Shown in pieces: positions 2,267-38,266 of a stretch of DNA of 53,713 nucleotides. The position numbers were made by a program, and so were the translations under genes. The stretch is from Oceanobacter sp. (GTDB taxonomy: Bacteria > Pseudomonadota > Gammaproteobacteria > Pseudomonadales > Oceanobacteraceae). The stretch's first letter is position 1. The number at the start of each line of letters is the position of its first letter. The stretch lies in contig NVWL01000054.1 in assembly GCA_002733645.1 (NCBI GenBank), forward strand, positions 1-53,713, in the 5' to 3' direction. Under the pieces are notes generated by a model. That model was not told where the DNA came from. It was given only the letters and a program-made list of their open reading frames with translations, and did no database searches.

Positions 2267-2319
2267 TGTTGGTTGCGGGAGTAGGATTTGAACCTACGAC
2301 CTTCAGGTTATGAGACGGA
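2267..2319. repeat. 53-bp direct repeat, left att site of island
   Basis: This stretch is identical over 53 bp to 38214-38266. It includes 45 nt of an initiator tRNA 3' end plus a few flanking bases. Paired copies of a tRNA 3' end are the signature left by tyrosine-recombinase integration at a tRNA gene. The two copies therefore mark the ends of a ~36 kb element. Confidence 0.85.
2270..2314 (-). pseudogene. tRNA-fMet 3' fragment (45 nt)
   Basis: On the minus strand this reads from the CAT anticodon loop through the anticodon 3' arm, variable loop, T arm (GGTTCAAATCC) and acceptor to CCCGCAACCA. That acceptor end matches alphaproteobacterial initiator tRNA. The D arm and 5' acceptor are absent: upstream of the anticodon the sequence diverges into AT-rich DNA. 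It is a remnant made by integration, not a working tRNA. Confidence 0.85.
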
Positions 2320-2452
2320 ATGCTTGATAGCTATATAATTGATAATAATGAATAATATATCACTATTTAGTGCGATGTGTTAGAACATGTGTTAGCGTTT
2401 TCGCCTTTTTGTCTAGAATCGTACTTTTTTGTGTTAGCTGGTTAACACAAAG
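2320..2452. repeat. att-flanking arm, related to 38267-39672
   Basis: This AT-rich segment lies immediately inside the left repeat. It contains several GTGTTAG motifs and an inverted repeat (GTGTTA/TAACAC) near 2432-2451. The segment right of the second repeat aligns with it once the IS3 insertion there is removed: both have a GTGTTA motif, a TTTCGC tract, then TTTTGTGTTAG...TAACACAAA. It is probably the attP arm region of related elements, with integrase or excisionase binding sites; binding itself is inference. Confidence 0.5.
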
Positions 2453-2621
2453 TCAAAGCTCAGGGCTGAGCGGAAGAATGGTTTACCTGATTGACGGCGC
2501 GTAAATTGGAAGCCTTGCCATTCGCATAAGTTCTGCAAATTTTCCTAGGCTTCGATCCGTGCTGGTCGTTCGGGCACGTTGCTTGCATTTCACGCCGACT
2601 TAATAGTAGAAAAATTTTGAA

Positions 2622-5126
2622 ATGCACTCGAAGGCAAGGACCGGGCTGCGAATGGTAATGGACGGGCATCAATGCAAGATTGTCGATCGCATCGTAGCAG
2701 GCCGATCGATTGTGGTCCTCTGCGCACCGCCAGGATTCGGGAAAAGGTGCCTTGCGCAGGAGGCGGCAAGACGAATTTCCACAGGTAGCGCGCTGTCGTT
2801 ATGCGAATTTGGCCAGATAGAGCATCGTGCTAATCCTCGTGCTGTAGCCGATGCGTTACTCGCAGAACCTAAACAGGTATCGATAATTGAAGATGTGTAT
2901 CTGACGGACAGAAATTTCATTGGCCAGGCGTTAGAACGGATAAGTTTCCGCAATTTGGGTCAGCGCATAATCATGACAATGAACCAGCCCAGCGACTTTC
3001 CGTTGGCGCGGATTGCGACCCGGCACACCATTGATATTCTCGATGCCAATGCTCTGCGCCAGCGGGCAAAGGTAACCGCCAATATTCTGAAATCAGTGCC
3101 ACGCCCGACGGCCCGTTCGCGACTTCGGCGGCTCGTTGGCGATTGGCCGGTTGCAAGTGAACTTCTATGCGCCTGGGCCGCCAGTTCACAGGACAGTTTC
3201 GAGAGTTGGAGCGACTTCGATATTGTGCGCGAAAGCCGGCTTGGCGAATTTATCGACCAGGAGATTCTGACATTATTCTCGAAAGCAGAATTATCCGCCC
3301 TTGTTCATGCCAGTTTGCTGGACGTGCCGGATCTCGACATTCTGGAGTCGGTGTCCGGTCACCAAAAAGATGGCCGGATTTTGGCAGACCTCGCTTTCAG
3401 GTTCAAAGGTCTGGTCAACCGTCACGAGAACCGGATCGATTTGCAGGGCGCATTGCGAATCTGGTTACGAGACGCGGTTGAGGTTTTCGACGAGCAAACG
3501 CGTGTTGAACTGCTAGTGTCAATGGCAGACCAATGCTCAGCCAAGGGAAGGCTCGCCGAGGCGGCTACGCTCGCAAGGATGGCCGACGATACTGGCCGAA
3601 TTCGTGACTATGCCCATGCCCACGGGGCCTTGCGAATATGGATTGTCCATGGGTTTTCTGTACTCAAGGAGTTGCTCGAAAATTCGAGTCCCGAGGACAT
3701 ATGCGATTCAATCGTGCTGCAAATGATTGAATGTATCATCCATATGAAGGTAGGCCGGATCAATGTTGCACAGGAACTGTTTGAATCCCTAGCTGAGAAA
3801 GTAGAACCCGGCCATCGATTGATCAAGGACCTTGAAATCGTTCGTCTAACCTTGCTCGTCTATGGCTGTTCATTTCAGCGTACCGGCGACCTTGAGTTGG
3901 TCAAGAGCCTGATTGCCGAGGAAGCGGATGATGCCGCGATGCGGTCTTTTTTTGCTACATTATCTGCCATCCTGAACAGTCAGCGCGCCCGGTTCGATGC
4001 GGCCGTGGCCAATCTCAACGATGCGCGCGCCCAAGCACGGAAGGTTTCTTCACAATATAATATGATGTTTCTACTCATGCACGAAGCATCGATCAACCTC
4101 GCCCAGGGCAAGCTGAAAAATGCAAGAACCTGTCTTTCAGACGCCCGGTCCCGTTGGCAGCGGGACTTCGCAAATGATGTCGGAGTAGAAACGGTCGTTG
4201 CGGCATTGAGCGCCTCCATCGAGTTCGAGGCCGGCCGTCTCACCAGTGCCCGCAATTCACTCAGGAAGTCAGCACATCGGATGCCGGAAGCCGAAGCATG
4301 GTTTGACATATATTTTGCTGCCTACGAGACGATGATACGGATCAACATCGTGGACCACGGGATCGGTGCAATGCATGAGGCAGTCGAGGACGAGGCCCGC
4401 AAATTACGCGCCCAGGGTTTGCCGCGGGTAGCCGACCTTTTGATGGCGATCAGGCTTTGTGTCTGCGGTGAGGCCCGTCTGCAGGGGCAGCGAACGATCA
4501 TTTCGGAATTGGCCTGGGAAATACCCGCAGTGGGACCGACAAGCAGCTGGCAGGAACAGGAGGTGTTCTCCATTGCAAGGGCTTATGCCGATTATTTCGA
4601 CGGAAAAGCGAATAAGGCGCAAGCATTGCTTGACCAGTCGATCGAATGGTCAGCCAGCTGCGGCCTCGAACGATCGCGATTACGTTTTCTGCTTGTGGCC
4701 TCTGCTATGGCTACCGCGCAGGGTGACATGCATCGTGCCCATGCAACTCTCCGGTGTGCGATTTCAATCGGAGCCGCAACGGGCATGCGTCAAATTTTCC
4801 GGGAGATTGCTGGCAGCAGCTTGACACCGGCGTTGAAAGCGCTGCGGAAGGATGCTGCTCTTACCGATCTTGAACTCGGGTTCGTGGAGTTGCTGCTCAA
4901 TCGTCTTGGAGACCGACAAAGCGTTGCCAGTGGTAAACTTTCTGCACGGGAACTGGAAGTATTGCGCTTGCTGGGTTCAGGTGGATCCGACAAGCATCTT
5001 GCCCGTCAGCTCAATCTTTCGGAACATGGTGTCCGTTTTCACCTCAAAAATATCTTCAAGAAGCTGGGTGTCCATGATCGATTGTCTGCTGTCGCCGCAG
5101 CGAACAAGCTCGAGTTGACAATATAG
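2622..5126 (+). CDS. LuxR-family LAL/MalT-like ATP-binding regulator
   Basis: This 834-residue protein is a large ATP-binding LuxR-type regulator of the MalT/AlkS kind, which bind an inducer and activate neighbouring catabolic genes. From the ATG at 2622 the order is: a P-loop region (CAPPGFGKR, about 34-42), a long helical middle with TPR-like repeats, and a C-terminal LuxR HTH at about 770-825 (LSARELEVLRLL...GVRFHLKNIFKKL). The Walker A lysine is followed by Arg-Cys instead of the usual Thr/Ser, which may weaken nucleotide binding. Start is uncertain: ATG 2652 or 2658 fits the AAGGA at 2636-2640 better. It reads in the same direction as the hydantoinase operon 137 bp downstream, the obvious regulatory target. 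Confidence 0.8.
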   Translation: MHSKARTGLRMVMDGHQCKIVDRIVAGRSIVVLCAPPGFGKRCLAQEAARRISTGSALSLCEFGQIEHRANPRAVADALLAEPKQVSIIEDVYLTDRNFIGQALERISFRNLGQRIIMTMNQPSDFPLARIATRHTIDILDANALRQRAKVTANILKSVPRPTARSRLRRLVGDWPVASELLCAWAASSQDSFESWSDFDIVRESRLGEFIDQEILTLFSKAELSALVHASLLDVPDLDILESVSGHQKDGRILADLAFRFKGLVNRHENRIDLQGALRIWLRDAVEVFDEQTRVELLVSMADQCSAKGRLAEAATLARMADDTGRIRDYAHAHGALRIWIVHGFSVLKELLENSSPEDICDSIVLQMIECIIHMKVGRINVAQELFESLAEKVEPGHRLIKDLEIVRLTLLVYGCSFQRTGDLELVKSLIAEEADDAAMRSFFATLSAILNSQRARFDAAVANLNDARAQARKVSSQYNMMFLLMHEASINLAQGKLKNARTCLSDARSRWQRDFANDVGVETVVAALSASIEFEAGRLTSARNSLRKSAHRMPEAEAWFDIYFAAYETMIRINIVDHGIGAMHEAVEDEARKLRAQGLPRVADLLMAIRLCVCGEARLQGQRTIISELAWEIPAVGPTSSWQEQEVFSIARAYADYFDGKANKAQALLDQSIEWSASCGLERSRLRFLLVASAMATAQGDMHRAHATLRCAISIGAATGMRQIFREIAGSSLTPALKALRKDAALTDLELGFVELLLNRLGDRQSVASGKLSARELEVLRLLGSGGSDKHLARQLNLSEHGVRFHLKNIFKKLGVHDRLSAVAAANKLELTI

Positions 5127-5177
5127 ACCTACTTGTTTCGGTAGGTTCTAGTCAGTGGCCAAAAACCAAACCTACCG
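5127..5177 (+). promoter_or_regulatory. Inverted-repeat operator candidate before hyuA
   Basis: The 137-bp gap between the LAL regulator and the hydantoinase gene has nested inverted repeats. ACCTAC (5127-5132) pairs with GTAGGT (5141-5146), and CGGTAGGTT (5139-5147) is perfectly inverted as AACCTACCG (5169-5177). Three copies of the CCTAC half-site within 50 bp suit a dimeric activator such as the adjacent regulator. No T-run follows, so a terminator role is less likely. Confidence 0.4.
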
Positions 5178-5263
5178 GGTAGAAGCCGAAACCTCCCGAT
5201 CAACGCTATTGAGCAACTTGCGGCGCAGTTTACCGTCAGTCCCTCATTCGGCGGAGGGTTTTA

Positions 5264-6817
5264 ATGCGGATTGGGGTGGACGTTGGAGGAACAAATACTG
5301 ATGCGGTTCTGCTCGCCAGGAAAGAGGTATTGGGAGCGGTAAAACGACCAACCAGCGGTGACGTAAGCACAGGAATTTCCGACGCCATCGGTGCGCTAAT
5401 CGGGGAATGCAATATCCGACCCGACGAAATCACGGCCGTGATGATCGGCACAACCCACTTTACCAATGCTTTCATTCAGAGGCGCGAACTTGTCCCGGTA
5501 TATGCGATACGGATCGGCTTTCCTGCCGGACGCGGTATACCGCCATTCGCCTCTTGGCCTAGCGACCTAAAAGCATCGGTCTGCGGGGATTCCGCGATGG
5601 TGCCGGGTGGCTTCGAATTTGATGGGCGCGAAATTTCGGCGCTTGATGAAGAGGCTATATCCAAAGCTGTATTTGAAGCGCGAAAGAAAGGCATAAGACA
5701 GCTCGCAGTCTCGTGTATTTTCAGCCAGTTGAATTCTGATCACGAAAACCGCGCTTCCGCCTTGATTAGAAAGCAGGCACCGGAAATGGAGGTATCCCTG
5801 TCATCCGAACTGGGCCGGGTTGGGCTGCTCGAGCGCGAAAATGCGGCGATCATGAATGCGAGCCTGCGACCGCTTGCTGCAAAAATCACCGCCGCCTTTG
5901 AACATGCCTTGCATGACCAGGGGATCACTGCTCCCTTTTACATTAGCCAGAATGACGGCACACTGATGAGCGCTGACTATATGCAGCGGTATCCGGTAAT
6001 GACGTTCGCGGCCGGACCAACCAACAGTATCCGCGGTGCCGCATGGCTCACAGGTGCCGAGAATGCGATTGTCGTGGATATCGGTGGCACCACCTCGGAT
6101 ATTGGCGTTCTCAAGGACGGCTTCCCCCGTCAATCGACGGTCCATGTCGATGTAGGTGGCGTCAGAACAAATTTCCGCATGCCAGACATTCTCTCGATCG
6201 GGCTCGGTGGTGGGAGCCTGGTCTGCGAGAATGGTGACAAGGTGACGGTTGGACCGGATTCGGTCGGCTATCGTTTGCTCAGTGAAGGATTGATCTTCGG
6301 GGGAGGGACGCTGACCGCCAGCGATATTGCAGTCGCTGGCGGTCAGACATCCTTCGGTGAACCGGACCGGGTTGCTGACCTGTCTCCCGCACTGGTTTCA
6401 CAAGCGCGTCAGGCGATCAGAGAATTGATTGACGACGGCGTGGACCGGATGAAAACCACGCCGGATGACATTCCGATGATATTGGTCGGTGGCGGCTCCG
6501 TCATCGTGTCGGAAACCCCTAAAGGTGTGTCTGAAATGCTCCATCCGGAACATGCCGGCGTTGCCAATGCTATCGGGGCGGCGATTGGACAGGTTAGCGG
6601 CGAAATCGATCGGATTTACAATATTGCTGGTCCGCAAGAGCGTGCGGCGGCCCTTGCGGATGCAGAAACACAGGCCAAGGCGCATGCGATCAGTGCCGGC
6701 GCGCAATCTGACAGTATCAAGATCGTGAATATCGAGGCTGTTCCGCTGCAATATTTGCCCGGGGGTGCCACCCGCGTTGTCTGCCGGGCAGTCGGCGATC
6801 TGGCCATGACGGAGTAA
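5264..6817 (+). CDS. Hydantoinase/oxoprolinase family ATPase (HyuA-like)
   Basis: This 517-residue ASKHA-fold enzyme belongs to the hydantoinase/oxoprolinase family, which uses ATP to open five-membered cyclic amides such as hydantoins or 5-oxoproline. The phosphate-1 motif VDVGGTNTD is at 5-13, phosphate-2 VVDIGGTTSDIG near 270, and an adenosine-type glycine motif (LVGGGSVI) near 407. It is the shorter class of about 520 residues that pairs with a DUF917 protein, as it does here 5 bp downstream. GGAGGG at 5253-5258 lies 5 nt before the ATG. It is the first gene of a four-gene operon ending in a TonB receptor. The true substrate cannot be read from sequence; a hydantoin, thiohydantoin or lactam is the family expectation. 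Confidence 0.85.
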   Translation: MRIGVDVGGTNTDAVLLARKEVLGAVKRPTSGDVSTGISDAIGALIGECNIRPDEITAVMIGTTHFTNAFIQRRELVPVYAIRIGFPAGRGIPPFASWPSDLKASVCGDSAMVPGGFEFDGREISALDEEAISKAVFEARKKGIRQLAVSCIFSQLNSDHENRASALIRKQAPEMEVSLSSELGRVGLLERENAAIMNASLRPLAAKITAAFEHALHDQGITAPFYISQNDGTLMSADYMQRYPVMTFAAGPTNSIRGAAWLTGAENAIVVDIGGTTSDIGVLKDGFPRQSTVHVDVGGVRTNFRMPDILSIGLGGGSLVCENGDKVTVGPDSVGYRLLSEGLIFGGGTLTASDIAVAGGQTSFGEPDRVADLSPALVSQARQAIRELIDDGVDRMKTTPDDIPMILVGGGSVIVSETPKGVSEMLHPEHAGVANAIGAAIGQVSGEIDRIYNIAGPQERAAALADAETQAKAHAISAGAQSDSIKIVNIEAVPLQYLPGGATRVVCRAVGDLAMTE

Positions 6818-6822
6818 CGGAA

Positions 6823-7926
6823 ATGGTATCTGCAATCACAATCGACAATATCGAACATTTTGCCATCGGGTCTTCGTTTCTGGGCACCGGCGGCGGTGGT
6901 GATCCCTATCTCGGATCGCTTCTATGCCGCGAGGCTATTGCGAAATATGGACCGGTTCCAGTCATTTCGGTGGATGAACTCAAAGACGAAGACAATGTTT
7001 TCATTGCCGCTGCAATGGGTGCCCCCACAGTGATGATCGAAAAGCTTTTTTCGATCGAGGACCAGCATCGGGCGGTTGCGACACTTGAACGGTTCCTCGG
7101 CAGGGAAGCCAGCGCAATCATCTCGGCCGAGATCGGAGGCTGCAATTCGATGATGCCGGTTGCCTATTCCGCGATGCGCGGACTGCCTATCGTTGACGGC
7201 GACGGAATGGGGCGCGCCTTTCCCGCACTCCAGATGACCAGTTTCAATATCGAGGGGGTCGCCTGTGCTCCGCTCACAATCGCAGACGAACATGGGAACA
7301 GCGTGCTTTATCAGACCACGACAGGGCTCAAGGCAGAGGAACTGGCTCGTCCCGTCGCTGCGGCCATGGGGGCCAGCGTGTGCATGTCCTGCTACCCGAT
7401 GACGGGAGTCGAGGCCCGGCGCGCGACAATACCGAAAACGCTGTCTGGTGCGATTGCCATCGGTGAAGCCATCAGCAACAGCTCCGACCCGCGTCCGCCG
7501 CTCACTCGGCTTGTCTCTGCGCTGCGCGGACATGAATATTACAAAGATGCAGCTGTCGTCTTTGAGGGAAAAATTACCGCGCTGGAACGCGACACGTCCA
7601 ATGGCTGGGTGTTAGGAAGTTGCTTGATCTCGGGAATGTCCGGGCCGGAAACTGCCGAACTCAAGTTCCAGAATGAAAATCTGCTGGTGACGGTCGACGG
7701 CCGGCTGCGCTGCGTGGTCCCGGACCTTGTCACCATCGTAGACGTCGAAACCGCTCATGCCATTCCGACCGAACGTCTTGCCTATGGGCAAAGGGTGGCA
7801 GTCGTCGTGTGCAGCGCTCCGCCGCTTCTCACCACCGCGCGTGCGCTGGATGTAGTCGGGCCGAAGTGCTTCGGTCTCGAAGAGCAATATATACCCGTAA
7901 CCGAGCTGATAAAGGATCTGATCTGA
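6823..7926 (+). CDS. DUF917 protein (S-methyl-thiohydantoin desulfurase-like)
   Basis: This 367-residue protein has the DUF917 architecture. The N-terminal domain carries the glycine-rich segment GTGGGGDPYLGSLL (about 26-39), the middle carries IISAEIGGCNS and IVDGDGMGRAFP, and a beta-rich C-terminal domain follows. DUF917 proteins nearly always sit beside hydantoinase/oxoprolinase genes, and the family has been tied to S-methyl thiohydantoin desulfuration. It starts 5 bp after the hydantoinase stop and its TGA overlaps the next ATG (TGATG), so all three are translationally coupled. It is probably the functional partner of the upstream ATPase on the same heterocycle; the exact reaction here is unproven. 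Confidence 0.8.
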   Translation: MVSAITIDNIEHFAIGSSFLGTGGGGDPYLGSLLCREAIAKYGPVPVISVDELKDEDNVFIAAAMGAPTVMIEKLFSIEDQHRAVATLERFLGREASAIISAEIGGCNSMMPVAYSAMRGLPIVDGDGMGRAFPALQMTSFNIEGVACAPLTIADEHGNSVLYQTTTGLKAEELARPVAAAMGASVCMSCYPMTGVEARRATIPKTLSGAIAIGEAISNSSDPRPPLTRLVSALRGHEYYKDAAVVFEGKITALERDTSNGWVLGSCLISGMSGPETAELKFQNENLLVTVDGRLRCVVPDLVTIVDVETAHAIPTERLAYGQRVAVVVCSAPPLLTTARALDVVGPKCFGLEEQYIPVTELIKDLI

Positions 7927-8660
7927 TGCGTATCCACCTCATTACACCGATTGTGACCGAAGGTATCCGGACGCTTGACGACGTAGCGTCGTTCAACAGT
8001 GCAGACCTTTCTATCACGCAGTCCCTGATTGCCACTGGACCGGCTTCCATTGAAAGCGAATTTGACGAAGCCATGTCTGTGCCCGGTATTGTTGCCGAGG
8101 CTCTCGCCGCCGAACGGTCCGGTGCGGACGCCATCATCATCGATTGCATGGGTGACCCCGGCCTTAGCGCCGCGCGGGAGGTCGTCTCGATCCCGGTGCT
8201 TGGGCCTTCGGAAACCTCGATGCATCTCGCTGCCATGCTGGGCCACAGATATAGCGTGGTGACAGTGCTCGATTCGGTTGTGCCAATGATCGAGAATCTG
8301 GCCAAGCTCTATGCCACGAGCGAAAAACTGGCATCGGTGCGGGTGATAAATATCCCCGTACTGGAACTGGAAGCTGCCCCCGAAAAACTGATCGCTGAAC
8401 TGGCGAAAGCATCGGTGGCTGCGGTCGAAGAAGATGGTGCCCATGCGATCGTATTGGGTTGTACGGGCTTCCTCGGATGTGCCGAGGGGATTACGGCCGC
8501 CTTGGAAGCGAAAAACTACACTCTGCCAGTCATTGATCCGATCCCCGCGACCGTCTGCATCGCTGCCGGGATCGTTCGCGCCGGTCTGACACACAGCAAA
8601 CGCACTTATGCCCAGCCGGGATCAAAGGATCTCAAGGGTTATCCGTCGATCAAGATCTAG
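7926..8660 (+). CDS. Asp/Glu/hydantoin racemase-like protein
   Basis: This 244-residue protein belongs to the aspartate/glutamate racemase superfamily, closest to hydantoin racemase (HyuE-like). The two catalytic cysteines are in the expected contexts, Cys74 in IIIDCMGDPG and Cys179 in IVLGCTGFLG. Hydantoin racemases use such a pair for two-base epimerisation at C5. The ATG at 7926 overlaps the upstream TGA by one base and sets the start; the frame opens further upstream inside DUF917, but that is not used. Placed with a hydantoinase and DUF917, it would interconvert enantiomers so that both can be processed. Confidence 0.85.
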   Translation: MRIHLITPIVTEGIRTLDDVASFNSADLSITQSLIATGPASIESEFDEAMSVPGIVAEALAAERSGADAIIIDCMGDPGLSAAREVVSIPVLGPSETSMHLAAMLGHRYSVVTVLDSVVPMIENLAKLYATSEKLASVRVINIPVLELEAAPEKLIAELAKASVAAVEEDGAHAIVLGCTGFLGCAEGITAALEAKNYTLPVIDPIPATVCIAAGIVRAGLTHSKRTYAQPGSKDLKGYPSIKI

Positions 8661-8673
8661 GGGGAAGAATATC

Positions 8674-10854
8674 ATGACCAAAACCAATATCCGCACCAGC
8701 AGCAGTCTCGCCATAGCAATCGCCAGCCTGGCCTGTGCCTCGCCTGCGTTTGCCCAGAACACGGGTAGCGATCAGACAGAAGCGGGAGGGACGGAAGATA
8801 TATTGGGAGAAATCGTCGTCACCGCCCAGCGCCGCGAACAGCGTGCCGATGATGTCGGGGTAACGATCAACGTATTGACCGGAAGCGACCTGAAGGCTGC
8901 CGGCACCCAGTCAATTGTGGATCTGGCGGCGATCACGCCAAATGTGCAAATCAAGAATGTGCTGGCCAATAGCGTTGTCAATGTCAGTATCCGCGGGATC
9001 GGCCTGAACGATTATGCGGCAAACAATAATCCTGCTGCGGGCATGTACGTCGACAATGTCTATCTTGTATCACCCGCTATGTTGTCGTTCGGACTCTTTG
9101 ATGTTGATCGCGTCGAGGTGCTCAAGGGGCCGCAAGGCGACCTTTACGGCCGAAACACGACCGCTGGCGCCGTCAATATTATCAGCCGCAAGCCGTCTGC
9201 CACGACTGACGTAATGCTCGAAGCCGGATACGGAACCTACGACAGCTGGCATGTAGAGGGAGCAGTCGGTGGCGCTCTCACGTCGACGCTGACTGCCAGA
9301 TTCGCGCTCCAGACGGTGCAGCAGGAATCCGGGCCGCAAACCAATTATGTCACGGGCAACCGTATCGGCAAAGTAGATCGCACCAATGGCAGGCTGCAAC
9401 TGCAGTGGGAACCAAGCGACAGCTTTAACCTGCTCCTGAACCTCCACAAAGGCTATGACCGATCCGATGTTACTCTCTACAAGGCAGACAATATCCTCAC
9501 CACCGAAGAGGACGCATTTGCCAGCCAGCCGAGGGTATCGGGAGCAGGCGTGGACCCTTATATGGAACTGGAATCGACCGGCACATCCCTGACTGCCAAC
9601 TGGTCTATCAGTCCCCAGGTAACGCTGACTTCAATCAGTGCCTATGAGCATTTTACCAGATCGCATGTCGAGGACACGGACGGGACCTCGTTGGCTTATC
9701 TCGACGCAACCTACGACAATGAAATTGACCAATATTCTCAGGAAATGCGGCTCGCATATCAAGGGGATGATCTCAATTTGATCGGCGGTGTATTTTACTC
9801 GCACGACAAGGTAGAAACTCGCGATACATTTTTCTCGCCCGACCTTCTGCCGCTCTTTGGTCTTCCGGGGCTAGACACGATTGGCAACACTTATCGCCAG
9901 CGCACCGATGCCTATGCTGCATTCCTGCACGGCGAATGGACCTTTGCGCCAAATCTGACGCTGATTGGCGGATTGCGCTATACCGAGGAAGAAAAGATAT
10001 TTGATCAGGCGACGACATTTCTGTGCACCGCAGGATCCTGCTCTGACCTGTTTGTGCCGGTGAGCAATGATTATTCGACCTCGAATGTTTCCGGCAAGAT
10101 TGGACTCAACTATCAAGCGGGTGATCGCACGCTAATCTATGCCAGCATCAGCCGGGGCTTCAAGTCCGGGGGCTTTCAGGGCCAGCTGACGTTCGATCCC
10201 ACAGTGCTTCAGCCGTTCGGCGACGAGAAGCTCACCGCATATGAACTGGGCCTCAAAACACGACTCTTTCCGAATTTCCAGCTGAATGCAGCCATTTTCA
10301 ACTATGATTATAGCGATGCGCAAATCTATGGGCCGCTGTTTGATTCTCCGGTCGGCGTGTTGTTCGGCATCGCCAATGTAGGCGATGCGAGGGTGACCGG
10401 GATCGAGGCTGATGCCCGGTGGAGTCCGACCGATGGGCTTGATGTCCGCTTCGGTGCCGGATTTATCGATACCGAGGTTACCAAATCGGTCGTTGCCGGC
10501 GTCGTAGAGGGCAGCGACCTGCCCAATTCGCCCCGCCTTACGCTCAATGGCCGGGTGAAATATGAATGGTCGCTGTCGGATCGCACCATGGCTGATATCA
10601 CCCTCTCGGGTAACTATCAGAGCCGTGTGCGCTTCGACATTGTCAGAAGCCCTGTAGAAGCGGTTGAAGGCGGTTACGTCCTTGCCAACGGCGAAGTGGG
10701 AATATCCTTCGCCGATCACTGGCGTGCATCGGTCTGGGTCAAGAATATTTTCGACCGGCTTTACCGGACGCAGACGCTCAACACGAGCACCGGGTGGACA
10801 AATCAATATGGCGCGCCGCGAACCGCAGGATTCAACATTGCCTACAAGTTCTGA
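8674..10854 (+). CDS. TonB-dependent outer-membrane receptor
   Basis: This 726-residue receptor takes up a ligand across the outer membrane using TonB energy. The ATG at 8674 follows GGGGGAAG (8660-8666) and opens a signal peptide ending in ASPAFA-QN near residue 26. The TonB box EIVVTAQRR follows at about 48-56, then the plug (IRGIGLNDYA; VEVLKGPQGDLYGRNTTAGAVNI), then a 22-strand-type barrel ending in the terminal aromatic motif AYKF. It starts 13 bp after the racemase stop. It likely imports the cyclic amide or conjugate acted on by the operon. Sphingomonads use such receptors for many carbon sources besides siderophores. Confidence 0.9.
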   Translation: MTKTNIRTSSSLAIAIASLACASPAFAQNTGSDQTEAGGTEDILGEIVVTAQRREQRADDVGVTINVLTGSDLKAAGTQSIVDLAAITPNVQIKNVLANSVVNVSIRGIGLNDYAANNNPAAGMYVDNVYLVSPAMLSFGLFDVDRVEVLKGPQGDLYGRNTTAGAVNIISRKPSATTDVMLEAGYGTYDSWHVEGAVGGALTSTLTARFALQTVQQESGPQTNYVTGNRIGKVDRTNGRLQLQWEPSDSFNLLLNLHKGYDRSDVTLYKADNILTTEEDAFASQPRVSGAGVDPYMELESTGTSLTANWSISPQVTLTSISAYEHFTRSHVEDTDGTSLAYLDATYDNEIDQYSQEMRLAYQGDDLNLIGGVFYSHDKVETRDTFFSPDLLPLFGLPGLDTIGNTYRQRTDAYAAFLHGEWTFAPNLTLIGGLRYTEEEKIFDQATTFLCTAGSCSDLFVPVSNDYSTSNVSGKIGLNYQAGDRTLIYASISRGFKSGGFQGQLTFDPTVLQPFGDEKLTAYELGLKTRLFPNFQLNAAIFNYDYSDAQIYGPLFDSPVGVLFGIANVGDARVTGIEADARWSPTDGLDVRFGAGFIDTEVTKSVVAGVVEGSDLPNSPRLTLNGRVKYEWSLSDRTMADITLSGNYQSRVRFDIVRSPVEAVEGGYVLANGEVGISFADHWRASVWVKNIFDRLYRTQTLNTSTGWTNQYGAPRTAGFNIAYKF

Positions 10855-26995: not shown

Positions 26996-27032
26996 CGCCA
27001 GTTTCCATTCATTGATATAATGATGTCAGCCA

Positions 27033-28777: not shown

Positions 28778-28801
28778 TAGGGCACTCGGCGACCGCGGCG
28801 T

Positions 28802-30447: not shown

Positions 30448-30767
30448 ATAACTCGCCTCCTATCAAGAGGTTGGTGTATAGGTTGCAAGGACTCTCTTGC
30501 GCCAATGCGCTTTACGCCCTGACCAATGAATTTATATTATACCCCATTTGTTACAGCGAGACCTTCTGCCCCGGGCACACGATTCATCCTCAGATATCCG
30601 CAGGTTTTCGATCAACGTCGGCGAAGGTATAACTTTTTCTTATGGATACGGGTATGATTTCAATTTATGCCACTCGCCATGCTGTAATATGAGGAGAGCA
30701 GGATGAGAGCACTTGGCATATATTCAGAACAGCATTGCGCTGGACAGGAAACCCCAAGGTTTCCGTC
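30448..30767. promoter_or_regulatory. Divergent promoter region, cyclases / lysR
   Basis: The 320-bp gap between the divergent cyclase operon and the LysR gene should contain both promoters. An ATAA-N7-TTAT palindrome at 30629-30643 is the best LysR-type site I see. GGCACAC occurs near 30574 and again before the dehydrogenase operon (about 31805) and TauE (about 35939). No other gene is visible here. Confidence 0.4.
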
Positions 30768-31721: not shown

Positions 31722-31862
31722 ATATCTCGGTCAGACAGGGCGCAAGCAGCCATGCCTATTTTTTATGGCATCGTGCCGGATAAGCATTGAACAACTGACC
31801 AACGGGCACACTACAAAACAGGGACGCTCATAACAGCCAATAATTTTAAATCGGGATAAGAC

Positions 31863-32789
31863 ATGGCCGGCGAAAATAGATTGAGAATTGGTGTTGTCGG
31901 CAGCGGGCGAATGGGTTCGGGCATTGCGTATATGCTGGCTCAGGCGGGGAATGCGGTTAGCCTCTTTGATACCGATCCGGCATCTCTTGAACTGCTGCCC
32001 GAAAGATTTGATTCAATTGCCGGGCTTTTGGGGCATGACGGTGCTGCATTGCGCCGGATCAACAGCTCGACCGATTTGGCAACCATTGTTCAAAAAGCCG
32101 ATATGGTGGTTGAAGCTGCTCCCGAGAAACTGGAGCTGAAACAATCGCTATTTTCACAGTTTGACGAGCTGACCCCTACCCACGCAATCCTCGCGAGCAA
32201 CACATCCGCCATCCCGATCGCGAGCATCGCCAAACCTGTGCGCGACAAGTCACGCGTGATTGGAACGCATTTCTGGAACCCGCCGCACCTCATCAGACTG
32301 GTCGAGGTGGTTCAGAGCGATCCAGATAGCGGGCCCGTGATTGCCAAAGCGATGGCCATTCTTGGAGGTGCTGGTTGGACGCCTGTACATCTGAAGCGCG
32401 ACATTCCCGGATTTGTCGGCAACCGCATGCAACATGCGCTGAAACGCGAAGCTATCGCCCTGGTGGCGGCGGGCGTGTGCGATGCAGAGACGGTTGATAC
32501 GGTTGTCAAAATGGGATTTGGCGGCAGGCTGGGCGTTATCGGGCCGTTGGAGCAGTCCGACATGCTGGGGTTGGAACTGACCCAGAATATCCACAACGTT
32601 CTGCTTCCCGACCTGGATGTAACGCCGCATACGCAGGATCATCTCAATAATCTTATTGCCGAAGGCAAACTCGGCATGAAAACCGGGGAAGGCTTTCGAA
32701 GCTGGACTGAAGAGCAAGCCGACGAGGTACGCAACCGGCTGGATAATTTCCTCGCTGAACAGGCGCGCAAAATGGCCAGAAATAATTGA
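31863..32789 (+). CDS. 3-hydroxyacyl-CoA dehydrogenase family protein (copy 1)
   Basis: This 308-residue NAD-dependent dehydrogenase has the Rossmann motif GVVGSGRMGSG (about 10-20), VVEAAPEKLELK (about 81-92), SNTSAIPIASI and the catalytic histidine in GTHFWNPPHL (about 139). The C-terminal domain starts at DIPGFVGNRMQHAL. Family members oxidise 3-hydroxyacyl-CoAs or free hydroxy acids (L-gulonate 3-dehydrogenase, carnitine dehydrogenase). No thiolase or hydratase fusion is present and the operon lacks a clear CoA ligase, so a free-acid or cyclic alcohol substrate is possible. It is the first gene of the plus-strand operon. Confidence 0.85.
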   Translation: MAGENRLRIGVVGSGRMGSGIAYMLAQAGNAVSLFDTDPASLELLPERFDSIAGLLGHDGAALRRINSSTDLATIVQKADMVVEAAPEKLELKQSLFSQFDELTPTHAILASNTSAIPIASIAKPVRDKSRVIGTHFWNPPHLIRLVEVVQSDPDSGPVIAKAMAILGGAGWTPVHLKRDIPGFVGNRMQHALKREAIALVAAGVCDAETVDTVVKMGFGGRLGVIGPLEQSDMLGLELTQNIHNVLLPDLDVTPHTQDHLNNLIAEGKLGMKTGEGFRSWTEEQADEVRNRLDNFLAEQARKMARNN

Positions 32790-32810
32790 TCAAATAAGAG
32801 GTAAATAATC

Positions 32811-33143
32811 ATGCAAGTCACACGGATCGACAAGGCAAAGCAATATCCAGCACGCAATCATAATGACATGTGCGCATTCCGGTTGCAGGGCGGCGAAGCC
32901 AGTTCAACCGAAAATTTCTGGGTTGGTTATTCGATTTTTCTTCCGGACGGCGGGGCAGACAAAGGCGCTGCTCCGACCGAGAAGGTCTATGTCGTGCTGG
33001 AAGGAGAAATCACAATTATTTTCGGCGACGAAGACGTGACATTGCATGCAATGGATTCGATCCTGATCGAGGCCAATGAGGAACGCGCTGTCGAAAACCG
33101 ATCAAACGACATCTGCCGGATGCTCGTCGTGTCGCCGAATTGA
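32811..33143 (+). CDS. Small cupin-domain protein
   Basis: This 110-residue single-domain cupin has motif 1-like residues around EKVYVVLEGEITIIFG (about 57-72) and motif 2 around AMDSILIEANEERAVEN (about 80-96). The usual metal-binding histidines are mostly replaced, so it may be a non-metal binding or isomerase-type cupin. It sits 21 bp after the first dehydrogenase and 17 bp before the second, so it is an operon member. Its function is unknown; cupins in such clusters can be isomerases, decarboxylases or accessory binding proteins. Confidence 0.75.
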   Translation: MQVTRIDKAKQYPARNHNDMCAFRLQGGEASSTENFWVGYSIFLPDGGADKGAAPTEKVYVVLEGEITIIFGDEDVTLHAMDSILIEANEERAVENRSNDICRMLVVSPN

Positions 33144-33160
33144 TCGCAAGGGGCTGACCG

Positions 33161-34135
33161 GTGAGCAATGATGCAATAAGTTGGGCCAATGACGTTACAA
33201 CCGTGTCGGTCATTGGCGCAGGAACGATGGGTGAAGGTATTGCTCAGAGTTTTGCTGAAGCAGGCATGGTCGTGCGTCTACTTGACGTAGACCAGGCTTC
33301 GCTGGATCGCTGCACCGGACAAATAGCGGCTAATCTCTCGCTTGGGAAGGAATATGGCATTGCAGGTGATAGCGCGAAAGCTGTTCTTGGGAGAATAAAA
33401 GCGACGCGATCGGACAGTCCGGTAACCCAGGTGGGTGACGCACAGGCGGTCATTGAGACAGTGCCGGAAATCAGTGATCTCAAACGCTCAATTTTCGCAG
33501 ATCTTGATATGCTGCCGGAAGGAGTTCTGCTCTGTAGCAACACCAGCAGCATGACAATGTCGACGATCACCGAAAGCATGAAAAGCGCAGCCCGCGCGGT
33601 CGGGCTTCACTATTTTAATCCCGCTCATATTATTCCTGCTGTCGAGGTGCACCGCAGTAAAGAAACAAGTGATGATACAGTCGAACGGGCAGCTGCGCTG
33701 TTGCGACGTACAGGCAAGGTACCATTGAAAATCGGCAAGGAAATCCCGGGTTTTGCGATCAACAGACTTACGGGAGCGCTTAGCCGTGAGATTGCCCATC
33801 TGCTCGACGAGGGTGTGGTTACAGCCGAAGCACTCGATGAAGCAGTCAAAGCAAGTCTTGGTTTCCGCTTGGCCTGGGTCGGGCCGATGGAGGGCGCGGA
33901 CTATATCGGACTGGACACCGATGCCCGCGTTTCGGGTGCCGTTTTTGGAGGTCTCTCCAATCGCGAAGACCCGCCGCGCGAACTGCTTGAAAAAGTGGAG
34001 CGGGGTGATCTTGGGGTAAAAACTGGCAAAGGCTGGTACGACTATGGCGATGCAACCCGCGAGCAATTGCTCGAACAGCGCAATCGGAAACTGCTACGCC
34101 AGCTAGCGGCGTGGCGCGAAGGACAGAAATCATGA
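33161..34135 (+). CDS. 3-hydroxyacyl-CoA dehydrogenase family protein (copy 2)
   Basis: This 324-residue paralogue of the enzyme at 31863-32789 starts at GTG 33161. It has the Rossmann motif SVIGAGTMGEGIAQSFAEAG (about 16-35), AVIETVPEISDLK, SNTSSMTMS and the catalytic histidine in GLHYFNPAH. The C-terminal domain begins IPGFAINRLTGAL and ends with the family motif GVKTGKGWYDY. Its stop overlaps the ATG of the FAH gene by 4 bp. Two dehydrogenases in one operon suggest two successive, or stereochemically different, alcohol oxidations. Confidence 0.85.
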   Translation: MSNDAISWANDVTTVSVIGAGTMGEGIAQSFAEAGMVVRLLDVDQASLDRCTGQIAANLSLGKEYGIAGDSAKAVLGRIKATRSDSPVTQVGDAQAVIETVPEISDLKRSIFADLDMLPEGVLLCSNTSSMTMSTITESMKSAARAVGLHYFNPAHIIPAVEVHRSKETSDDTVERAAALLRRTGKVPLKIGKEIPGFAINRLTGALSREIAHLLDEGVVTAEALDEAVKASLGFRLAWVGPMEGADYIGLDTDARVSGAVFGGLSNREDPPRELLEKVERGDLGVKTGKGWYDYGDATREQLLEQRNRKLLRQLAAWREGQKS

Positions 34136-35106
34136 AACTGGTGACATTTGACGATTCCGCGGGCCGCGGACCGAAACGTATCGGCGCGGTTCTGGATAAC
34201 AATGTGATCGATCTGAACGCGGCTTTGGCATCGCGTTTAGCAACCGGTGCTACCATCGAACGTGCGGCGATCATGGCCAACGCCGCTATTCCCGATGACA
34301 TGGTTGCATTTCTGGCGGGCGGTCCAGCGAGCATGGACCAAGCCAAATCTGCGCTGGAACATAGCGCGAATGCGGACGAAGGCACAGATGGCCAGCCGAT
34401 TGAGCGATCGCTTTCGAAGGTCCGGCTTTTGGCACCGGTCCCCCGACCCGCATCCATTCGCGACACGATCAGCTTCGAAGGCCATATGCGTGCTTTTGAA
34501 CGGCGGACCGGCAAAACCACCCCCGACCTTTGGTATGACAGGCCGATATATTACAAGGGTAATCCGGCAACCGTTGTGGGGCCGGAAGCCGAGATTCGCT
34601 GGCCAGCTTATGCAGAAAAACTCGACTATGAACTGGAGTTCGGTATCATTGTCGGGAAGACCGGATGCGACGTTGCTGAAGCGGACGCACACAGCCACAT
34701 CGCCGGCTATTTGATTTTCAATGATTTTTCGGCGCGCGATGTCATTCCCGGGGAGGTATCGGTCAACCTCGGCCCGTCCAAGGGTAAGGATTTCGATACC
34801 GGCAATGCAATGGGACCCTGGCTGGTCACACCGGACGAAATCGACGCTTCCAACCTCAACATGACCGCTCGGATAAACGGCGAGACATGGTCTGAAGGCA
34901 ATAGTTCCGACATGTACTGGACGTTCGAGCAGATGATCGCCTTCATGTCCCAAAGCGAAACGCTTCATCCGGGTGATTTCATAGGGTCCGGGACCGTCGA
35001 GAATGGTTGCGGCGATGAAATGGACAAATGGCTGAGCCCCGGCAATGTCGTCGAACTGGAAGTCGACGGGCTGGGCCTTTTGCGAAACACAATATCAAGC
35101 CGCTAG
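34132..35106 (+). CDS. Fumarylacetoacetate hydrolase family protein (copy 2)
   Basis: This 324-residue FAH-fold hydrolase or isomerase has the catalytic region DTISFEGHMRAFERRTGK (about 111-128), the metal site LDYELEFGIIVGKTG (about 164-178), FNDFSARD, and the late LHPGDFIGSGTVENG (about 278-292). ATG 34132 overlaps the upstream stop (ATGA). Related enzymes hydrolyse acylpyruvates, diketo sugar acids, or isomerise homoprotocatechuate-pathway intermediates. It differs from the FAH at 18207-19217, so it probably acts on another diketone. Confidence 0.85.
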   Translation: MKLVTFDDSAGRGPKRIGAVLDNNVIDLNAALASRLATGATIERAAIMANAAIPDDMVAFLAGGPASMDQAKSALEHSANADEGTDGQPIERSLSKVRLLAPVPRPASIRDTISFEGHMRAFERRTGKTTPDLWYDRPIYYKGNPATVVGPEAEIRWPAYAEKLDYELEFGIIVGKTGCDVAEADAHSHIAGYLIFNDFSARDVIPGEVSVNLGPSKGKDFDTGNAMGPWLVTPDEIDASNLNMTARINGETWSEGNSSDMYWTFEQMIAFMSQSETLHPGDFIGSGTVENGCGDEMDKWLSPGNVVELEVDGLGLLRNTISSR

Positions 35107-35126
35107 AGCAACGAAAGAGACATGCA

Positions 35127-35912
35127 ATGACTGACATTATCAACCAGCTTTTCAATCTTGAAGGCAAAAGCGCTCTGATCACGGGAGCAACCGGATCGCT
35201 CGGCGCGGCAGCGGCGCGGGCTTTGAGCGGCGCGGGCGCGCATGTTACTATCGCCGGGGGCAATGCAACGGCATTGGCCGAATTGAAAGCCGAAATCGAA
35301 CAAGCAGGCGGTGCGGTACAATCCATTGCCAGTCGTCCGTCCAGCGAAGCAGAGTGCCAAAAAATCGTCGCAGCCGCCAGTGCCGATGGCCGTGGGCTCG
35401 ATATCCTGATCTCCGCTTCGGGAACGGCCAAGATCAAGCCCGCTCTCGAAATGGAACCCGGCGAATGGGATACCGTGATGGATGCGAATGTCCGGCAAAG
35501 CTGGCTCATCACCCGCGCGGCGGGCAAAATAATGGTAGAGCAAGGTCGCGGGGGGAGTGTAGTGTTGGTTTCCTCTGTCCGCAGCCGCTTTGCGACGCCC
35601 GCCGGGACGACGGCCTACGGACCGTCCAAGGCGGCGGTCGATATGCTGACCAAAAGTTTTGCAACCGAATGGGGCAAACACGATATCACCGTCAATGCTA
35701 TCGCGCCCACCGTGTTTCGGTCCGAACTGACGGCTTGGCTGTTTGAGGATGATGCCGCCGAACAGCGCAAAGGTGTTTTGTCCCGAATTCCCCTGGGGCG
35801 TTTGGCAGAACCCGAAGATTTTGCCGGATCAATTATCTTTCTCTGCGCACCGGGTGGAAGCTATGTTACGGGTGAGATACTGAATGTCGACGGGGGTTTC
35901 TGCGCCAATTAG
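35127..35912 (+). CDS. Short-chain dehydrogenase/reductase (copy 2)
   Basis: This 261-residue SDR has the cofactor motif TGATGSLG (about 18-25), catalytic VVLVSSVRSR and YGPSK, and the C-terminal NVDGGFCAN. Strong similarity to the SDR at 27033-27839 extends through NAIAPTVFRSELTAWLFE, so the two look like duplicates on either side of the regulator. ATG 35127 is 20 bp after the FAH stop. It may act in the reverse direction or on the next hydroxyl relative to its paralogue. Confidence 0.9.
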   Translation: MTDIINQLFNLEGKSALITGATGSLGAAAARALSGAGAHVTIAGGNATALAELKAEIEQAGGAVQSIASRPSSEAECQKIVAAASADGRGLDILISASGTAKIKPALEMEPGEWDTVMDANVRQSWLITRAAGKIMVEQGRGGSVVLVSSVRSRFATPAGTTAYGPSKAAVDMLTKSFATEWGKHDITVNAIAPTVFRSELTAWLFEDDAAEQRKGVLSRIPLGRLAEPEDFAGSIIFLCAPGGSYVTGEILNVDGGFCAN

Positions 35913-35946
35913 GAGCCTCGCACAGAACTAACGGGCGGGCACACAC

Positions 35947-35952
35947 TATAAT
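35947..35952 (+). promoter_or_regulatory. TATAAT -10-like box upstream of TauE gene
   Basis: A perfect TATAAT lies 40 bp before GTG 35993, shortly after GGGCACAC (about 35938-35945). No good -35 is seen. It may give the transporter its own promoter or a leaderless transcript. Confidence 0.25.
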
Positions 35953-35992
35953 CATAGATGACCCACTTTTCTGGTTTACTGCGGTCATCGCG

Positions 35993-36694
35993 GTGGTGAT
36001 CACAGGCATTTCAAAGGGCGGTTTTGGCGGGTTGGCATTGCTCGCGGTTCCGTTGATGGCGCTGACCATTTCCCCACTGCAATCGGCCGGGATAATACTC
36101 CCTATTTTGATCGTCATGGATTGGGTCAGTGTTTGGGCCTACCGCAAGCACTGGGACCGGAATATTCTGTTTCTCATGCTGCCAGGAGCTATCGTGGGAA
36201 TTGCCACCGGCACGTTTCTTGCCGGTTATTTGAATGACCAGATCGTACTCGTCTGCGTCGGCGCAATCGCCCTGATTTTTCCGCTATATGCGGTTTTTAA
36301 GCCGAAAGGTCGGAAGGACGTCATCGCTGGCAACAGACCTTTGGGATTTATTGCCGGAACTGTGGCTGGATTTACCAGCTTTGTCGCACATGCGGGCGGA
36401 CCGCCGTTTCAGGCCTATGCCCTGCCGCAAAATCTGGAAAAGCGGGTCTATGCCGGAACCGCTGTAATGTTCTTCTTTGTCGTGAATTTTGTGAAAATAC
36501 TACCCTATGCGATGCTCGGCCAGCTTGATCAGGCCAACCTCACAATCTCATTGATATTAATACCGTTGGCCCCGATTGGCGTGCTCATCGGCGTCGCGCT
36601 GGTCAAACGCATCGACCATCAAACATTCTACAGGATCATGTATGGTCTGATTTTTGCCGTTGGATTGAAACTGATTTGGGATGGTCTAACGTAA
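35993..36694 (+). CDS. TauE/SafE-family membrane transporter
   Basis: This is a TauE/SafE (sulfite/sulfonate exporter-like) membrane protein with about seven to eight helices and the N-terminal family motif GISKGGFGGLALLAVPLMAL and mid-protein FTSFVAHAGGPP. From GTG 35993 it has 233 residues, but family homology continues upstream in frame (DDPLFWFTAVIAV from about 35957), where no ATG, GTG or TTG exists. The codon where a start is expected is ATA (35948), so either a rare start is used or the ATG has mutated. A TATAAT box at 35947-35952 suggests a separate promoter. It might export sulfite, sulfonate or an organic acid. Confidence 0.75.
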   Translation: MVITGISKGGFGGLALLAVPLMALTISPLQSAGIILPILIVMDWVSVWAYRKHWDRNILFLMLPGAIVGIATGTFLAGYLNDQIVLVCVGAIALIFPLYAVFKPKGRKDVIAGNRPLGFIAGTVAGFTSFVAHAGGPPFQAYALPQNLEKRVYAGTAVMFFFVVNFVKILPYAMLGQLDQANLTISLILIPLAPIGVLIGVALVKRIDHQTFYRIMYGLIFAVGLKLIWDGLT

Positions 36695-36751: not shown

Positions 36752-37586
36752 GGCCGTAAACTCATAAACGGGATTCCCAAAGCGTTGCAGATATGATTCA
36801 ATCTCCGAGATAGGAGATTGTTATGGTGCGTTATGAGATGAGCGAGTTTGAGTGGTCGGTGATCAAGCCGATATTGCCGAACAAGTCGCGTGGTGTTCGA
36901 CGCGTTGATGACCGGCGCGTTCTCAACGGGATATTCTGGGTGCTGCGTTCGGGGGCACCGTGGGCGGACATCCCGGGGCGCTATGGCCCTCACACAACCT
37001 GCTACAACCGCTTCCGTCGTTGGACGAAGGCGGGTGTGTGGGATCAGATAATGGACACAATTACCGATGCTTATGAAGGTGATGTACGTATGATCGAGGG
37101 AACCTCGGTGCGCGTTCATCATAGTGCTGCCACTTTAAAAAAAGCCACCCGGATCGAAATATCGGACGCAGCCGGGGAGGTCTTACTACAAAAATCCATG
37201 CTGTAACCGATGAGCATGGCTTGCCGGTGAAGCTCTCGATCTCTGAAGGGCAAATGCACGATATTAAGGCAGCAGCCGATCTTCTCGATCATATGCGCGA
37301 GGGCCAAATGCTGCTTGCTGACAAAGCCTATAGCGCAAACTGGCTGAGAGACTTTATCCGCGAGCGCGGTGCATGGGCCAATATCCCGCCCAAATCCAAC
37401 TACAAAGACCCGGTATGCTTCTCGCCCTCCCTCTACAAGGCGCGCAACCAGGTCGAACGGTTCTTTAACAAACTTAAATATCACAGAAGGATAGCGACAC
37501 GATATGACAAGCTTGGATCATCCTACCTCGCCATGATCAAACTCGCCGCCATACGCATCAAACTTCGATTTTATGAGTCTACTGCC
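36752..37586 (+). mobile_element. IS5-family (IS427-group) insertion sequence
   Basis: Terminal inverted repeats GGCCGTAAACTCATAAA (36752-36768) and its mate ending GGC at 37586 (reading GGCAGTAGACTCATAAAA inward) match at about 15 of 17 positions. The element is 835 bp and is flanked by a TA duplication (36750-36751 and 37587-37588), as expected for this group. It lies downstream of the TauE gene. Confidence 0.85.
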
Positions 37587-37589
37587 TAG
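36823..37589 (+). CDS. IS427-group transposase, programmed -1 frameshift
   Basis: This is a DDE transposase in two overlapping frames. Frame A (36823-37206) begins MVRYEMSEFEWSVIKPILP and contains RSGAPWADIPGRYG. Frame B continues as SHPDRNIGRSRGGLTTKIHAVTD-type sequence through LADKAYSANWLR to QVERFFNKLKYHRRIATRYDK and ends at 37589. The join is an A7 run at 37137-37143 where a -1 slip links the frames, the usual expression mode of this group. The TAG stop is built partly from the flanking TA target duplication. It looks intact. Confidence 0.85.
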
Positions 37590-38156
37590 TATTTTATGAC
37601 CATAGTAATGGCTATTAAAGTCTGCTTTCGGTCTAATCGGAATTTAACGACCGCTGTTGGGCGCTCGCTGAACGCCAGCTTACAGCGCCATTAGCGGAGC
37701 AGCAACTCTAGCGAGGGTGCCGTCTAGCTGCATGGCTCCGAGGAGTGCTTTTGGCAACGAAGCCAAATGACCGATATTGCCTTTTTCATTTTCATTATGA
37801 GTTAGAAATCGCGCCGAGAGCAATCGCAGCCAGTGACGAGCATATGGTCCCCAGTGTTAAGATTTAAGGCAAAAACCCGTTACGGGTTTCGATAGACAAG
37901 TCAAAACGGCAGTAAGGCCTTCTCAAATCCATAGCTAAACTATTGGATGAGCAGCTATAAATAGTTCGATACTGAAAAAAGGTTGTTGCGATTGTTCCAA
38001 CAGAAGACCGGAGGCACAGGGAAAGGGAGAAAGTTGGCGAGGCAGCACAGGTTGGAATCTGCAATCTGAGTGAAGCCGTGCGCAGAGTGCACCGCAGAGC
38101 AAATACTCAATCCTACTCACCAGCTTGCTTACCATATCCTTACTGTTCGAACGAAC
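37590..38156. other. No gene; right end of element 1
   Basis: This is about 570 bp without a recognisable gene. It contains a short hairpin AAACCCG-TTA-CGGGTTT at 37873-37889. A plus-strand frame at 38078-38260 ends in GVGFEPTTFRL, which is merely the translated tRNA remnant. No integrase or excisionase remnant is evident although this is the element's right end. Confidence 0.4.
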
Positions 38157-38186
38157 AAAGGCCCCGATCTTTCGACCGAGGCCTTT
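38157..38186. terminator. Bidirectional terminator beside right tRNA remnant
   Basis: AAAGGCC (38157-38163) pairs with GGCCTTT (38180-38186), with T-rich ends in both directions. It differs from the terminator at 2235-2259. That is expected if element 1 supplied its own terminator to the tRNA after integration. Confidence 0.65.
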
Positions 38187-38213
38187 CGTTAAGTCATTGC
38201 CTTTATGACATTT

Positions 38214-38266
38214 TGTTGGTTGCGGGAGTAGGATTTGAACCTACGACCTTCAGGTTATGAGACGGA
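38214..38266. repeat. 53-bp direct repeat, right att site
   Basis: Identical to 2267-2319. It marks the junction between element 1 (left) and a second element (right). Confidence 0.85.
38217..38261 (-). pseudogene. tRNA-fMet 3' fragment (45 nt), second copy
   Basis: This is the same anticodon-loop-to-CCA fragment of initiator tRNA as at 2270-2314, again lacking the D arm and 5' acceptor. Since the tRNA lies on the minus strand, its intact copy should be further right, beyond the window. Confidence 0.85.

Follow-up and report, generated by a model that had tools for sequence, protein, structure and literature searches.

Does a stretch of DNA framed by two copies of the same tRNA end represent one genomic island, or can it be the residue of several? 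This question is raised by contig NVWL01000054.1 (C29) of the Oceanobacter sp. assembly GCA_002733645.1, which was analysed in full (53,713 bp, hereafter the window; the assembly has no sequence to the right of position 53713). The window contains two direct repeats derived from the 3' end of initiator tRNA (tRNA-fMet), and an earlier note had described the 36 kb between them (segment A) as an island with a second element (element B) in tandem. Tandem accretion of elements at tRNA-fMet is supported by our analysis. Segment A is probably not a single intact island, as its ends carry different integrase arm sites and no integrase was found within it. We posit, as the rather more probable history, that segment A consists of two elements (E1 and E2) fused by one deletion that also removed both of their integrases.

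The tRNA-fMet repeats and their counterparts in sphingomonad genomes

The earlier description of the repeats was confirmed. They are exact over 53 bp (Table 1), extend to an ungapped alignment of 81 nt with 88% identity, and form the only direct-repeat family of at least 25 nt reported by the repeat finder in the window. Each contains, on the minus strand, the 3'-terminal 45 nt of the initiator tRNA from the anticodon loop to the CCA end (2270-2314 and 38217-38261). Neither copy is an intact tRNA gene: ARAGORN finds zero tRNAs in the window, and an Rfam scan of the window returned no family at the gathering score. As also noted earlier, the copies lie beside different terminator-like stems, AAACCCCGCACTTGTGGCGGGGT at 2235-2259 and a GGCCCCGATCTTTCGACCGAGGCC stem at about 38157-38186. 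Positions 2233-2314 match the empty tRNA-fMet site of genome G301 with 89% over 82 bp, tRNA part included.

From a comparison with related genomes, we consider the repeats to be site-specific attachment (att) sites at tRNA-fMet. A tRNA end followed by the same first arm bases is present in four Sphingomonadales records (L029, L030, L031 and L032), in each of which the CCA side bears a terminator-like stem. The arms of L030, L031 and L032 align with the window arms, while L029 aligns in the core and about 9 nt only; its arm-site words are placed similarly despite the non-aligning arm. Three of the four record genomes also have tRNA-fMet copies that are intact, or cut by a contig end but otherwise intact. 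In each of these three genomes a tyrosine-recombinase-like gene of 444-459 aa starts 97-145 bp from one tRNA-fMet copy, and integrases adjoin intact tRNA-fMet in G055, G056, G057 and G367. Only one of three integrase proteins reaches a Pfam family at E 0.001, and this below the family cut-off. Genomes G301 and G211 form an empty/occupied pair: G301 matches the intact-tRNA side of G211 with 99% and its fragment side with 86%, the switch lying within the tRNA.

In the window itself, direct repeats from the tRNA 3' end bound the element, and the contig stops before any intact tRNA, so that the working gene, which the earlier note places right of the window, would lie beyond the assembled sequence; the empty/occupied pair is that of the relatives G301 and G211 only. 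An exact search with the terminator and tRNA pattern of the window's own empty site gave zero matches. For the HipA-like gene outside the left att site, the best DNA match in the family of Sphingorhabdus sp. EL138 (G057; 397 genomes) is 70%, and its flank has no close match there.

When three class I integrases (classes defined below) were compared with 394 family genomes, 26 loci were found in 24 genomes. The two best loci adjoin tRNA-fMet, and the others have a tRNA-Leu (14), a tRNA-Lys (3) or no tRNA (7) in the locus. Integrase target choice therefore seems to follow the integrase clade. In the relatives, according to the loci searched, the target tRNA-fMet directly follows the 5S rRNA gene at the end of an rRNA operon; 5S and 23S rRNA were found at six of seven tRNA-fMet loci, the seventh being cut by a contig end. 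Five sphingomonad loci have two tRNA-fMet ends in the same orientation 7-12 kb apart, three of them (L129, L238, L242) being small elements in which a fragment is paired with an intact tRNA and two (L131, L128) having two intact tRNAs. The two tRNA ends of Sphingorhabdus sp. EL138, one a fragment and one intact, are on separate contigs (C2:70869 and C4:98375), each facing the contig start, and the island would reach up to about 169 kb if these starts adjoin.

Arm-site words and the two ends of segment A

The arms beside these att sites contain short repeated words, which we infer to be putative integrase-binding sites, and which belong to two classes. In class I left arms, TGTGTTAG or a word close to it lies at about +60, +74 and +116 from the core, and class I right ends in G057 and G056 have TGTGTTAG-type words at -94/-83; G055 has a variant, TGTGTGAG, at +60, +72 and -119. 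In class II elements two words are spaced by about 11 bp. The pair lies around +131 to +165 in the left arm and around -94 to -57 in the right arm, and its words are often TGCTT[AC]C, though quite different in some elements. The class II integrase of TM1040 contains PF00589 and PF13356. Class II integrases lie on the fragment side in all eight same-contig cases (G176, G476, G471, G457, G651, G618, G595 and TM1040), and class I integrases on the intact-tRNA side in both same-contig cases (G055 and G461).

The pairing of ends was scored as the best 19-mer match between the two end arms of an element. The sample comprised elements with a fragment and an intact tRNA in line among the loci listed, singletons and intact-intact pairs being left out. 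For 11 same-contig elements, own pairs had a mean score of 15.9 versus 13.0 when permuted, and 0 of 200,000 permutations reached the own-pair mean. Three pairs spread over two contigs scored 13 (G057), 14 (G056) and 17 (G211). Nine of the 11 same-contig elements scored at least 15, and this clear pairing may offer a simple way of matching ends and of spotting fused or truncated islands for which the sequence suffices.

Segment A begins with a class I left arm (Table 1), whose sites have the same positions in L030, L031 and L032 with some variant letters, and which is 81% identical to L030 over 187 nt. Its TGTGTTAG pair is the only pair spaced by 11 or 12 bp in the window at no more than one mismatch per site, with 0.025 pairs expected by chance (40 shuffles, base composition kept). 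The right end is different. It has zero TGTGTTAG words in the 135 nt examined before position 38217 and carries the words TGCTTAC and TCCTTAC (T[GC]CTTAC) at -93/-82. At 11-bp spacing and up to one mismatch per site, the TGCTTAC pair occurs once in the window versus 0.175 expected by chance over all positions and both strands (40 base-composition shuffles). In the 19-mer comparison the right end scores 16/19 with the class II arm of G211, the best of 14 arms, and 12/19 with its own left arm, which is background.

Four integrase queries, three of class I and one of class II, gave no match in the window by tblastn (best E 0.36 and 0.65), and Pfam found no integrase in the window open reading frames (ORFs) scanned, a subset of those of at least 100 aa. 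The ORFs scanned between the att sites likewise contain no integrase, relaxase or conjugation domain, while in relatives an integrase gene does adjoin the att site. Integrative and conjugative or mobilizable elements (ICEs, IMEs) are recognized by conjugation or mobilization genes, of which there are none among the window ORFs scanned, element B being incomplete in the contig. Segment A rather resembles a cis-mobilizable element (CIME), since the att sites at 2267 and 38214 are kept and integration and transfer genes are absent from the ORFs scanned. The two ends of a CIME should come from one ancestral element; here the arm-site words differ, which we take as evidence of fusion subject to the reservations below, the class being assigned by the word.

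Site-specific insertion and excision move whole elements and hence cannot produce mismatched ends, whereas an illegitimate deletion across an old junction can. A single deletion of this type would also account for the failure to find an integrase in the segment, as class I integrases lie at the right and class II integrases at the left. We posit that the array would have comprised at least three elements, E1, E2 and B. The class I left end at 2267-2449 would be the remnant of E1, and the class II-type right end at about 38125-38216 that of E2. The class I integrase (right, tRNA end) and the class II integrase (left, fragment end) would both have been located at the former E1/E2 junction, where a single illegitimate deletion would have eliminated the two genes and left the ends mismatched. 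The IS5-family element at the junction, which we infer to be a candidate deletion scar, perhaps helped this deletion. The outcome would be a decayed, CIME-like passenger bounded by att sites.

Several observations weigh against such a fusion. No relative with an unfused E1/E2 junction was found. The IS5-family element is without clear ends or duplication, and no inverted repeats (12 nt, up to two mismatches) were found around it. The right end, as its letters read, is a hybrid within about 100 bp and no clean class II end: positions 38149-38216 resemble class I right ends (88% over 50 bp in G057, 79% over 68 bp in G056), and because the 11-bp spacing is common to class I right ends, the class II label depends on the word itself. 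Two of the 11 control elements in the pairing test are at background score, namely G461 (13) and G246 (12), the latter with no integrase found. In nine of 14 cases the own arm has the first rank, in five the second or third, and class II elements with similar words cross-match with off-diagonal scores of up to 18, so that the test separates classes better than individuals. Class I pairs generally score low (13-15), because the spacing differs between their two ends, and the 12 of the window is not far below. As the elements are related, the permutation count is no true probability. In view of the class I-like terminator flank and the shared 11-bp spacing, we hold the fusion to be only moderately probable.

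The most serious alternative, which we regard as rather improbable though well short of dismissal, is that segment A is one ordinary island that lost its integrase and underwent drift or replacement of the arm sites at its right end, with only A and B stacked. It offers the simplest element count and accords with the class I-like flank at 38149-38216, and PMC5704250 describes tandem decayed elements as common. However, the right end has a spaced class II-type pair in nearly the same register as the class I words (-93/-82 versus -94/-83) and no decayed TGTGTTAG, and both the low chance expectation of such a pair (0.175) and the background similarity of the two ends speak against drift. Alternatively, the assembly might be a chimera of two unrelated contigs, with the tRNA repeat or an insertion sequence as the point of joining. 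The contig does appear foreign to its bin, and tRNA repeats break contigs in relatives (C1 and C7 of G055 both stop inside the tRNA). We nevertheless consider a chimera unlikely, since joining at the tRNA end would require an assembly overlap of about 45-53 nt, and assembler k-mers are usually longer than that; moreover, on either side of the junction the flank matches a genuine end of an element.

By far the least credible explanation is that the repeats were never att sites and are copies of a tRNA fragment spread in another way, for example by plasmids. Alphaproteobacterial plasmids do carry tRNA-fMet 3' ends (44 records), but the whole tRNA gene is present at four of the six such sites opened, and a plasmid origin of the fragments was rejected on this ground. 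The arms also carry homologous spaced words, integrases adjoin the same sites, and the empty/occupied comparison in the relatives contradicts such copying.

Two further observations concern these sites. On three alphaproteobacterial plasmids (L008 3356-5050, L009 3405-5048 and L010 3392-5044), the gene of a 'recombinase family protein', perhaps of the serine type, ends inside an intact tRNA-fMet, so that the tRNA 3' end, read as its reverse complement, supplies the last codons of that gene. A third kind of arm, with no class I or class II words in 300 nt, was seen at L164, a fragment on contig C130 of G056, where it lies beside a class II-type right end; this array in the G056 metagenome-assembled genome might be another mismatch of ends.

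Element B, predicted mobility and known systems

The earlier interpretation of 38214 as the junction of two stacked elements holds. Its left flank is like the element right ends beside intact tRNA-fMet (88% over 113 bp) and its right flank is a left arm (38212-38365 matches L032 with 88% over 154 nt), the tRNA part being included in both figures. The class I left arm of element B is split by an IS3-family insertion with inverted ends TGACGTGACCCC and a 4-bp target duplication, TGAA. In L032 the matches to the two parts of the arm are contiguous, and position arithmetic places the word at 39652 at +116 once the insertion and one duplication copy are subtracted.

The 2267 copy had been taken for the oldest junction, a claim that we do not uphold: a newcomer may enter the tRNA copy or the attR of a resident with the same sequence order either way, and the order of insertion is thus not readable from the junctions. 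Newcomer entry at the attR of a resident element is described in PMC5704250.

A class I integrase may be located at the right end of element B, beyond the contig. Such an integrase would be predicted to excise A and B together (at least 51 kb) more readily than B alone, because att site 1 has a complete class I arm, which would make it the best partner for B's right end, and B's own left arm is cut by the IS3-family insertion. We tentatively suggest, as a possibility with less than even support, that in a pile of at least three elements a deletion swapped the end codes and the class I arrival B mobilises the whole block of at least 51 kb as a unit. If true, the IS3-family insertion in the B arm would favour composite transfer over transfer of B alone. 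Should this hold generally, deletions at the junctions of tRNA arrays would provide a route by which later integrases adopt decayed cargo, and the pairing of arm sites would test for it from sequence only.

Tandem accretion followed by decay is a known phenomenon. In CIMEs and the site-specific accretion of streptococcal ICESt1-related islands, att sites are kept and integration genes lost, tandem arrangement with another element occurs on the same target, and newcomers may enter the resident attR (PMC5704250). Unlike a CIME, the two ends of segment A belong to different arm-site classes, and unlike the ICESt1-related islands, the target here is tRNA-fMet and the ORFs given to Pfam have no conjugation or mobilization domain. 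CGI48 at tRNA-Trp of Shewanella putrefaciens is likewise a composite island at a tRNA, reportedly stabilised by a HipAB module (PMC8978831). In the window, hipA lies beside the array and abiE inside it. CGI48 is described as containing another island inside, with excision shown, whereas the window has a tandem order, with hipA outside the left att site, and is known from sequence alone. In the portions available, PMC4741004, PMC11476347 and PMC5704250 contain no description of an array of the window type.

A further likeness is to islands with Arm-DNA-bind_3 (PF13356) integrases, as the class II integrase of TM1040 has PF13356 and PF00589; the window differs in keeping a class II-type right end only, with no such gene found. 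We take the PF13356 integrase islands to be of P4 type. The window does hold a tandem array at tRNA-fMet, of an ordinary kind, in which a sign of fusion and decay can still be read. Array histories are hard to read once integrases are lost, and that of the window is unusually readable: an apparent single island is better read as a fusion, and a prediction can be made as to which piece can still move.

Cargo and source of the contig

The features of the window are compiled in Table 1.

Table 1. Features of the window in and around the tRNA-fMet array (coordinates in bp; arm positions relative to the core)
Feature	Coordinates	Strand	Content and basis
HipA-like toxin gene	837..2180	+	Pfam HipA_C, Couple_hipA; convergent with tRNA remnant, outside left att site
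Terminator-like stem, probably native terminator downstream of tRNA-fMet	2235..2259		Resemblance to G301 empty site
att site 1	2267..2319	tRNA on minus strand	53-bp repeat with 45-nt tRNA-fMet 3' end
Class I left arm	2315..2449	+	TGTGTTAG at 2376, 2388, 2430 (+62, +74, +116)
Cargo block 1	2622..10854	+	LuxR-type regulator, hydantoinase-like genes, Asp/Glu racemase, TonB receptor (Pfam)
AbiEi/AbiEii type IV toxin-antitoxin pair	11448..12954	+	Pfam
IS110-family insertion sequence	12963..14364	-	Pfam DEDD_Tnp_IS110, Transposase_20; 83% to G421
Cargo block 2	15844..36694		FGE-sulfatase, CoA-transferase pair, two FAA hydrolases, arylsulfatase-like, TonB receptor, MFS, short-chain dehydrogenases/reductases (SDRs), GST-like, putative cyclases, 3-hydroxyacyl-CoA dehydrogenases, TauE (Pfam)
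IS5-family transposase, two ORFs	36823..37589	+	Pfam DUF4096, DDE_Tnp_1; adjoins segment right end
Class II-type arm-site pair TTGCTTACCATATCCTTACTG	38125..38145	+	Sites at -93 and -82
Right-end flank with terminator stem	38149..38216		Match to integrase-proximal flanks of intact tRNA-fMet in G057, G056 starts here
att site 2, segment A/element B junction	38214..38266		53-bp repeat with tRNA-fMet 3' end
Element B class I left arm, first part	38262..38365	+	CGTGCTAG at +62, TGTGTTAT at +74; letters read from sequence
IS3-family insertion in B arm	38366..39636	-	Transposase 38384-39313; Pfam rve, HTH_21
Element B left arm, second part	39637..39737	+	TGTGTTAG at 39652; 85% to L032 2678-2778
Element B cargo, cut by contig end	39946..53642		DUF2817, FAD oxidase, SDRs, EthD, M19 dipeptidase, IS5, AraC regulator, DAO, AMP-binding (Pfam)

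The earlier note had spoken of tandem accretion of catabolic islands. Of this statement the accretion stands, and the cargo looks partly catabolic, by domain names only. Judging from its matches, the cargo is a mosaic. Positions 2571-10871 match G147 with 80% identity at 2.63 Mb, whereas tRNA-fMet matches of that genome are at 1.53 Mb, the nearest being about 1.09 Mb off. The AbiE pair (11604-12949) is 91% identical to G237. Synteny of 20000-38148 in 14 relatives yielded a single match of 68%, and 37560-38160 gave no plasmid match. The HipA-like gene may be part of a hipBA-like toxin-antitoxin pair (590-2180), in which hipA was identified by Pfam and the small HTH gene before it by eye only.

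The contig is probably of sphingomonad origin and was likely binned with a foreign organism. At up to three mismatches, the 45-nt tRNA-fMet end has only four copies in the source genome: the two window repeats, without a mismatch, and a pair of intact tRNA-Met genes on contig C80, with 3 mismatches. An intact tRNA-fMet closer than 3/45 mismatches to the window's 45-nt end was not found in the source genome, while the 45 nt are matched without mismatch in several sphingomonad genomes. The tetranucleotide correlation of three window parts with an 18-kb stretch of contig C80 is 0.42, 0.53 and 0.73. The first 16.9 kb of the window were searched in 55 genomes (the source and 54 relatives, five candidates scored per genome) and gave, outside the source, tRNA ends and short stretches of 68-84% only, with no block match. 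Window blocks match the family of Sphingorhabdus sp. EL138 with up to 95% (a piece of an insertion sequence) and 91% (the AbiE pair).

For a 16S fragment from the source genome, identity is 81-83% to the three best E. coli rows, with 5,379 of 5,382 E. coli records at 60-80%, and 76% to the alphaproteobacterium TM1040. A sphingomonad 16S was sought in G211 for comparison, and the stretch examined showed no rRNA (BLAST, Rfam). As the contig appears foreign to its bin, an intact tRNA-fMet elsewhere in the source genome would neither support nor refute the finding, and the probability of the fusion is independent of the class of the source genome. Close to the contig end (53600-53713), the AMP-binding gene stops early in sequence that is 76% similar to the source contigs C57, C47 and C5 and is perhaps the end of an insertion sequence.

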